Assembly: GCA_026398815.1 (NCBI GenBank) | Contig: JAPLSA010000008.1 | Coordinates: 186,001 to 250,000, forward strand | Source: Gammaproteobacteria bacterium | GTDB lineage: Bacteria > Pseudomonadota > Gammaproteobacteria > Nevskiales > Nevskiaceae | Length of the DNA stretch: 64,000 nt | Direction of reading: 5' to 3' | In this document: piece by piece, positions 1-3,235 of the stretch | How positions within the stretch are numbered: the stretch's first letter is position 1 | Layout: each line of letters opens with the position of its first letter | Notes under the pieces: model-generated | Seen by the model: the letters and a program-made list of their open reading frames with translations, nothing else | Database searches by the model: none | What the model was told of the DNA's origin: nothing | Position numbers and translations under genes: made by a program

Positions 1-6
1 GCTCAT
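1..6 (-). CDS. Start of the next gene after bchC, probably bchX (cut by window edge)
   Basis: Only two codons, ATG AGC, are visible, read leftward from position 6. The ATG overlaps the bchC stop in an ATGA motif, the usual sign of translational coupling. In purple bacteria the order crtE-crtF-bchC-bchX-bchY-bchZ is conserved, so bchX (the ATPase subunit of chlorophyllide a reductase) is the expected gene. That identity is inferred from gene order only. Confidence 0.4.
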
Positions 7-944
7 TGCGGGGTGCTCCAGTCGAGAATCATCTTCAGGCAGGCGGGATCGCCGAACGCCGTGCGGTAGGCGCCGTCTGCGCTGGCCGCCGGCTGCCGAT
101 GGGTGATGAGGTGGGTCAGCGACAAGCGGCCGGATTCGGCGAGCTGCTTCGCGGCCATCAGGTCCTGCTGCTGCCATTGGGCAGCAACGCGGATCCGCGC
201 CTCGCGCATGAACGCCGGCGGAAACGCGAACGCCAGACGCTCGCTGTAGAACCCGGCGAGCACCACTTCGCCGCCGGGTGCCAGGCGAGAAATCAGCGTG
301 TCGAGCAGGTGGGCATCGCCGGAGACGTCGCAGATGGTCTGGTAGTCGCGGCGCGGATCGCTCGCCGGATCGACCACCGGATAACCGAGGGCGCCCTCGG
401 CGCGATCGGCATTGGTTTCCCAGACCGTCGGCGCGGCGCCGCCGAGCGCCAGCGTCATGCGCGCCAGCAGGCGGCCGAGCACGCCGTGGCCGACGATCAG
501 ATCCGGCAAACGGGAACGCCGGCTGACCAGCGCGTGGTGCGCCGTCGCCGCCAGCGCCAGCAGCGTGGCGTCGATGCCGAGATGTTCGGCCACCACGATC
601 GCCCGGGCGGCCGGCACCACCACGGTCTGCGCAGCGCCGCCGAACAGGCCGCGCACGTCGCCGAAGCAGCGGGCGCCGGGGACGAACACCAGGTCGCCCA
701 CTTTCGCGCTCGCCGCCGGGCCGACGGCCCGCACCCGGCCCACCGATTCATAGCCCGGCACCAGCGGATAGCCCATGCCGGGGAAATCAGGCATCCGGCC
801 GGTCCACAGCAGGCGTTCGGTGCCGGTCGAGATGCCGCTCCAGCAGATATCGACGACCACATCCTCGGCGCAGGGCTCGGCGAGCGTCAGGCGCGTCAGC
901 GCCAGACGTTCGGGCTGCTCGAAGACGACTGCGATGGTGTCGAT
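3..944 (-). CDS. bchC: BchC, 3-hydroxyethyl bacteriochlorophyllide a dehydrogenase
   Basis: BchC oxidises the C3 hydroxyethyl group of the bacteriochlorophyllide a precursor to acetyl, a late step of bacteriochlorophyll a synthesis. The protein is a zinc-alcohol-dehydrogenase relative. The family signature WSGISTGTERLLW is near residues 38-50 and PGMGYPLVPGYESVGRV follows. The family N-terminus (DTIAVVFEQPERLAL) is encoded immediately after 944, but there is no ATG, GTG or TTG there. The codon in the start position is ATC at 944-942, preceded by GGAGG at 7 nt. The next legal start is GTG at 860, which would remove 28 conserved residues. With the ATC start the protein has 313 residues, about the usual BchC length. 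An in-frame TAA lies upstream of the ATC with no other start between. It is cotranscribed with crtE-crtF, and its stop overlaps the next gene. Confidence 0.93.
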   Translation of the reverse strand: MDTIAVVFEQPERLALTRLTLAEPCAEDVVVDICWSGISTGTERLLWTGRMPDFPGMGYPLVPGYESVGRVRAVGPAASAKVGDLVFVPGARCFGDVRGLFGGAAQTVVVPAARAIVVAEHLGIDATLLALAATAHHALVSRRSRLPDLIVGHGVLGRLLARMTLALGGAAPTVWETNADRAEGALGYPVVDPASDPRRDYQTICDVSGDAHLLDTLISRLAPGGEVVLAGFYSERLAFAFPPAFMREARIRVAAQWQQQDLMAAKQLAESGRLSLTHLITHRQPAASADGAYRTAFGDPACLKMILDWSTPQ

Positions 945-1006
945 GCCCGTTCCTCCGGTGCGCTCAAGCGGATGGTCGAGTCCGTTGGTCGGACTTCTGT
1001 TGCTGT

Positions 1007-1050
1007 TGTTAGTTTAGTCTGACAGTTGAAACTGTCAATTTATATTTACT
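1007..1050. promoter_or_regulatory. Tandem PpsR/CrtJ-type operator upstream of bchC
   Basis: A TGT-N12-ACA box lies at 1007-1024 (TGTTAGTTTAGTCTGACA). A second, TGT-N12-ACT with one mismatch, lies at 1033-1050. They are 8 bp apart, the spacing known for cooperative PpsR/CrtJ binding. A perfect 8-bp inverted repeat, TGACAGTT-GA-AACTGTCA, spans 1020-1037 between them. The stretch sits between crtF and bchC, is AT-rich against a GC-rich background, and implies a second redox- or light-controlled promoter inside the crtEF-bchC unit. Binding itself is inferred. Confidence 0.7.
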
Positions 1051-3192: not shown

Positions 3193-3235
3193 TGTAAATC
3201 TGGATTTACATGATTTATGTAATTCACAATAGACA
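3193..3235. promoter_or_regulatory. Tandem PpsR/CrtJ-type operator between crtE and crtD
   Basis: Two exact TGT-N12-ACA boxes lie at 3193-3210 (TGTAAATCTGGATTTACA, a perfect 8-bp inverted repeat around TG) and 3218-3235 (TGTAATTCACAATAGACA). They are separated by 7 bp, the canonical arrangement for PpsR/CrtJ. They lie in the divergent crtE/crtD promoter region and could control both directions. The TTG at 3236 immediately after the second box would leave no room for a promoter and leader, which argues for a later crtD start. Confidence 0.82.

Follow-up and report, generated by a model that had tools for sequence, protein, structure and literature searches.

To our knowledge, few bacterial genes keep an AUC, AUU, or AUA start codon across species, and most of these encode translation or regulatory factors. 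AUC pairs with the first two bases of the initiator anticodon. Binns and Masters are said to have shown in 2002 that E. coli pcnB is translationally limited by its near-cognate start. The infC gene, which starts with ATT in E. coli and with ATC in Streptomyces, is autoregulated by IF3, as described in the available text of the source (PMC5472188). The same text describes Streptomyces sigR, whose GTC start is repressed by IF3 and whose product is overproduced with a canonical start; of 34 species, 32 have GTC at the sigR start and the other 2 have GTT (PMC5472188). In S. aureus reporters, AUU and AUA starts reached about 10% of AUG expression in poor medium, and the ccpN start as much as 30% in rich medium; an AUA start of citZ is confined to one strain lineage (PMC13009471). 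In vitro, more IF3 led to less N-terminal incorporation at weak third-base pairs including AUU/CAU, with AUC/CAU not among the pairs noted in the available text (PMC10158994). In chloroplast petD, AUU and AUC are cited as being merely 10 to 20% weaker than AUG (PMC9845219), which counts against a strong AUC or AUU penalty everywhere.

We analyzed the locus of bchC, which is required for making bacteriochlorophyll, at the beginning of a window of 64,000 nucleotides (G000:C27:186001-250000). The features of the gene and its start are as follows.

3-944, minus strand: bchC coding sequence of 313 codons, with ATC first and a TGA stop (3-5); TIGR01202 match and coding substitution bias from codon 2
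942-944, minus strand: start codon ATC; ATC in 7 of the 8 bchC-bearing genomes of the genus and ATT in 1, and ATC in L030
951-956, minus strand: Shine-Dalgarno sequence GGAGGA, with GGAGG at 956-952 and then 7 nt to ATC; purine-rich site at the equivalent place in 9 of 9 loci
1014-1016, minus strand: in-frame TAA, upstream limit of the bchC reading frame
858-860, minus strand: GTG at residue 29, first in-frame canonical codon after ATC; rejected as the bchC start
4-6, minus strand: ATG of bchX, overlapping the bchC stop (ATGA); ATGA in 9 of 9 clade loci

The start is none of ATG, GTG, or TTG, it stands at good spacing behind a Shine-Dalgarno sequence, and it is conserved in related species; by these features bchC would join the known kind of genes with near-cognate starts, exemplified by infC, pcnB, and sigR. 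It shares with infC a near-cognate AUN start behind a ribosome site that is kept across species. However, infC encodes its own repressor and forms a feedback loop, whereas bchC is a pigment-pathway enzyme gene and could only be a target. With pcnB it shares the status of an enzyme gene with a near-cognate start, but the E. coli gene starts with AUU and is not the head of a pathway operon. The sigR gene is the first of a cotranscribed and translationally coupled pair, with a noncanonical start, an extensive ribosome site, and the same C/T pattern as bchC; it differs in being a Streptomyces sigma factor gene characterized by experiment (PMC5472188). Conserved noncanonical starts with strong ribosome sites are likewise found in S. 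aureus ccpN (AUA) and cvfC1 (AUU), the latter heading an operon, but these staphylococcal genes encode a regulator and a small protein, respectively, and were mapped by initiation profiling, whereas bchC encodes a biosynthetic enzyme (PMC13009471). Within photosystem control, AerR of Rhodobacter capsulatus also uses a noncanonical start, an internal CTG. In contrast to bchC, this start yields a second isoform of a regulator, and R. capsulatus bchC appears in the available text of that study as a target promoter only (PMC6199135). No earlier report of a noncanonical bchC start, including in Nevskia photosynthesis clusters, was found in the literature covered, in which subscription papers are thinly represented.

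In a profile search the gene product matched the equivalog model TIGR01202 with 441.9 bits against a cut-off of 291.25 (E 1.1e-132) over residues 3 to 308. The protein reads I-DTIAVVFEQPERLALTRL..., its first residue coming from the ATC at 944-942 on the minus strand. The original prediction, which put an ATC at 944-942 with GGAGG 7 nt before it, was exact in coordinates, frame, and sequence. It also held that the frame has no in-frame ATG, GTG, or TTG from the upstream TAA (1016-1014) to the GTG (860-858), and the count in the sequence is zero.

The comparison of bchC starts among relatives, which the original prediction had proposed as a check, drew on 18 genomes of the genus. Eight of them carry bchC, and several of those without it are incomplete; 58 genomes of the family yielded the same 8, and 85 genomes of the order yielded 3 more. 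At the homologous first codon, G000 (the window genome), G003, G009, G007, G006, G015, and G001 have ATC and G017 has ATT. ATC also stands there in a metagenome-assembled genome, Lysobacteraceae bacterium CoA8_M120 (L030). The source assembly of the window (4.3 Mb) is in 32 contigs and is 95.6% complete, which leaves some room for a sequencing or assembly error at this base, the fallback offered with the original prediction. This reading is refuted by ATC in six other genomes of the genus and L030 and ATT in a seventh, and we give it practically no credence.

A wider survey covered 91 BchC loci: the 8 of the genus, 75 database loci (L017 to L091, including L030), 3 of the order, and 5 of the class. 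The database loci were the best 80 of 462 confirmed, minus 5 that repeated genomes of the genus, and the class loci came from 369 genomes drawn, of which 7 matched and 5 were newly added. The sample thus consists of best matches to the BchC query of the window and is not a random draw of all bchC genes. The first aligned codon was ATG in 49 loci, GTG in 11, TTG in 9, ATC in 8, ATT in 1, and another codon in 13, so that ATG, GTG, or TTG stood at the homologous codon in 69 of 91. A canonical codon lay no more than 8 codons upstream or 3 codons downstream in each of the 13 other loci, as in all 82 loci other than the nine with ATC or ATT. Eight of the 91 loci had no canonical codon in this interval, every one of them with ATC or ATT; the ninth, L010 (G001), carries GTG at -7. 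The nine ATC/ATT loci formed one clade (SH-aLRT 97) in a quick maximum-likelihood tree of the 91 sequences. They require 1 change against a mean of 8.7 after shuffling, a result consistent with a single origin of the ATC start. Within this clade, the Shine-Dalgarno core is GGAG or GGAGG in 7 of 9 loci and GGGGGA in G001 and G015. TTG and GTG as first codons (9 and 11 of 91 loci; e.g., L020, L021, L026, L027, and L069) were also observed, and weak starts might conceivably be favored for bchC more widely. A BchC copy from the same order (L093, in G076) contains one in-frame TGA.

Substitution patterns mark the ATC codon as the boundary of the coding sequence. Mismatches were counted by codon position in 28 ungapped pairwise comparisons of the 8 genus loci. 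The counts for positions 1, 2, and 3 were 169, 141, and 173 from -60 to -30; 72, 73, and 83 from -30 to -15; and 32, 45, and 67 from -15 to 0. They were 0, 0, and 7 at the start codon itself, 30, 0, and 70 from +3 to +30, and 28, 0, and 103 from +30 to +57. The pattern therefore switches from noncoding to coding at the ATC codon in the 28 pairs, and the mild positional lean from -15 to 0 probably reflects the conserved ribosome site and the presence of near relatives. Codons 2 to 19 show zero second-position changes. Across the 8 copies, pN/pS was 0.12 for codons 2 to 10, 0.17 for codons 11 to 20, 0.51 for codons 21 to 28, and 0.21 to 0.33 in later blocks, with pS between 0.41 and 0.64 by region; synonymous sites differ at about half of the positions.

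These data bear directly on translation from the in-frame GTG, which would give a protein short by 28 residues. This GTG is the first ATG, GTG, or TTG downstream of ATC in the window genome and four relatives, and standard gene finders would be expected to pick it. The original prediction had objected that a start there would delete 28 conserved residues, and the objection holds, as the GTG is residue 29 and purifying selection acts on codons 2 to 20, second positions being unchanged in codons 2 to 19. The GTG-started product retains model positions 28 to 308 of TIGR01202 (413.7 bits). In the window, GAGG lies merely 2 nt before the GTG, and no ribosome site was scored for the GTG conserved between G001 and G007, where it sits one codon further on. 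The first downstream canonical codon also varies among loci, at residue 7 (G006 and L030), 14 (G017), 29, or 30 (G007). A start at the GTG is, on this evidence, highly improbable.

A start further upstream, from a canonical codon combined with a frameshift or from another noncanonical codon, has in its favor that an open stretch of 5 to 27 codons precedes the start codon in genomes of the genus (in-frame stops at -6 to -28 codons) and that an in-frame canonical codon lies upstream in two genomes, GTG at -7 in G001 and TTG at -9 in G017. However, neither codon is common to the relatives, coding bias is absent upstream of -15, and stops are near, with an in-frame TGA 6 codons upstream in G006 and an in-frame stop at -11 in G015. 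All three frames of G003 and G009 are free of ATG, GTG, and TTG between -75 and +24, so that in these two genomes a canonical start upstream is excluded over this interval, whether or not a frameshift is invoked. The alignment, inspected by eye, showed no upstream near-cognate codon common to all loci. We regard an upstream start as extremely unlikely. Since coding bias begins at the ATC and the upstream region holds stops and lacks shared canonical codons, AUC is the only credible start, and bchC of this genus is very probably translated from AUC (AUU in one species). Gene finders restricted to ATG, GTG, and TTG would be expected to clip 28 conserved BchC residues in much of the genus or to misplace the start. 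Codon 4 was also considered as a start and rejected; it reads ATC in all of the 8 genus genomes except G017 (GTC), reads ACG in L030, and lies 16 nt from the ribosome site.

In the photosynthesis gene cluster, bchC is placed before bchXYZ. BchX follows it directly, and BchY, BchZ, PufL, and PufM come next, with BchY to PufM read in the window genome. BchX was identified by TIGR02016 in the G006 copy (E 1.6e-123), and the homologous frame is present in the window genome. Among 81 loci outside the clade, 58 had ATGA with adjacent bchX, 14 were classed as not adjacent, and 9 had GTGA or neither; several of the 14 likewise have ATGA at the end, although their alignment begins further away. Because the ATGA overlap is common outside the clade, it is not tied to AUC and is no adaptation to the weak start.

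Upstream of bchC, the leader contains the following elements.

1011-1038, minus strand: predicted sigma-70-like promoter TTGACA-N16-TAAACT, 10 of 12 matches
1033-1050, minus strand: upstream box NGT-N12-ACA of the CrtJ/PpsR type (AGT here); present in all nine loci and 26 bp away from the downstream box
1007-1024, minus strand: downstream box TGT-N12-ACA of the CrtJ/PpsR type, 8 bp after the first and over the -10 region

Two sigma-70-like sites were found compared with 0.1 in shuffled sequences, the other one being on the opposite strand, and TTGACA is present in 9 of 9 bchC leaders. From the promoter-like site we infer a transcription start near 1004 and a leader of about 60 nt. All nine leaders have paired NGT-N12-ACA boxes 26 bp apart from start to start (an 8-bp gap), the first ending in TTGACA. 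The first base of the boxes is often A or C, and both are perfect TGT in G017 only. In R. capsulatus, the promoter of bchC carries TGT-N12-ACA boxes for CrtJ spaced 8 bp apart, the same box type and spacing as in the clade leaders (PMC6199135). Of the 18 genus genomes, precisely the 8 with bchC have a PpsR/CrtJ gene scoring above the TIGR02040 cut-off. The bchC gene appears to head an operon behind CrtJ/PpsR-type boxes. With regard to RNA structure that might hide the start, the leaders of G000 and G003 fold no better than shuffled sequences (z of 0.53 and 0.24, respectively), so structure lends no support to a weak start.

Other elements were observed around these sites. A small hairpin, GTCCG-N5-CGGAC, lies at 979-995 of the window (minus strand), near the presumed 5' end of the bchC message; by eye, it can be recognized in the alignment in 6 of the 8 leaders of the genus. 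Seven of the 8 bchC genomes, all but G017, have another, shorter PpsR-like match (G000:C23:543595-544671 and relatives), which lies 4 to 5 kb from PpsR and scores near the family cut-off. Inspection by eye also revealed a TGT-N12-ACA inverted repeat at 3193-3210 of the window, between the divergent crtE and crtD, which is likely a PpsR-type site.

The original prediction had suggested that a weak start could throttle BchC relative to crtEF. The gene it called crtE matched models of prenyl diphosphate synthases but reached the cut-off of none. The gene it called crtF is an O-methyltransferase (PF00891, E 1.3e-38) that scored 40.5 bits with the CrtF/BchU model, far under the cut-off of 276.1. 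Throttling relative to these genes is plausible; as bchC has its own promoter-like site and tandem boxes, crtEF and bchC need not share a message or control.

We propose that the purine-rich Shine-Dalgarno sequence would set the initiator tRNA over the AUC of bchC, where the third-base mismatch with the CAU anticodon would make initiation inefficient and allow IF3 to reject it, as with infC and sigR. BchC synthesis would then be low and dependent on IF3 and ribosomes at the head of a bchC-bchX-bchY-bchZ-puf row behind a PpsR-type promoter, and bchX may be lowered too through the ATGA overlap. By analogy with the described systems, the AUC start likely lowers BchC synthesis, and bchC is presumably sensitive to IF3. 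The translation of bchC and bchX may be coupled, and the low rate may be selected for. A conserved, IF3-sensitive weak start that throttles BchC is probably the best explanation of the locus. AUC, a start hardly ever used by bacteria, probably keeps BchC low here and may tie its production to the state of the ribosomes.

The AUC could also be the true start without any regulatory role, having arisen once by drift, with a good Shine-Dalgarno sequence compensating and the amount of BchC sufficing. The single clade fits one origin, purine-rich ribosome sites are present in 9 of 9 loci, and BchC may be needed in small amounts. In addition, 30 of the 51 C-majority fourfold columns of bchC contain only C or T, so that the absence of G from the third base of the start is unremarkable and the codon may be tolerated rather than selected. 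However, a single base change would give ATG, yet 0 of 9 loci have ATG although synonymous sites differ at about half, and sigR and the S. aureus reporters show such codons lowering expression (PMC5472188, PMC13009471). We therefore hold an origin by drift without regulation to be rather improbable.

Beyond throttling by the weak start, the AUC could tentatively be seen as an adaptive translational gate that places the first gene of the bacteriochlorophyll and reaction-center gene row under IF3 control on top of PpsR, although we doubt that it extends so far. Pigment synthesis would in that case track the ratio of IF3 to ribosomes, and with it growth rate, cold, and nutrient state, and a conserved near-cognate start would govern a biosynthetic pathway instead of a factor of translation or regulation. 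A pigment enzyme at the head of a photosystem gene row would show that a near-cognate start can set metabolic flux, in a system whose pigment output is easy to measure.

The likeness to infC drawn in the original prediction proved apt within the genus itself. A match to infC was found in 16 of 18 genus genomes, with the G009 copy cut by a contig end, and its start, assigned by homology to the textbook gene, was ATC in 12 and ATA in 3 of the 15 readable genomes. Such starts are thus evidently used by the ribosomes of this genus. The infC gene of the L030 genome also starts with ATC, as judged by eye. Scans of the photosynthesis cluster for other genes lacking a canonical start were confounded by open antisense frames in this GC-rich DNA, and a change-point screen of orthologous genes was used instead, comparing 880 kb of G007 with 1.28 Mb of G001. 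Its first round covered 109 genes, with bchC at the top of the 7 candidates listed. A wider screen with more codons allowed covered 169 genes and placed bchC fourth by raw score among the 23 matches listed above -8. After review of these 23 matches, only bchC and infC were left of the 169 genes.

Eight of the matches were opened and dismissed: two were short antisense frames, four had an in-frame canonical start further upstream, one was an alignment inside a long frame, and one had a TTG four codons on that we judged usable. Another 13 were judged by their rows, with a canonical codon adjacent or within two codons in 5, a longer coding stretch scored from the canonical codon in 7, and an equal one in 1. 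The infC score was just -2.6, owing to a TTG five codons upstream, and the screen can therefore miss similar genes. Two genes are a lower bound, because the screen works only where leaders can be aligned and overlooks genes that happen to have a canonical codon upstream. In two genomes infC begins at a contig end, at profile position 43 (G000:C32:2-382 and G009:C20:2-382), and in the window genome a piece of infC with positions 2 to 38 lies on another contig (C8:187656-187766).
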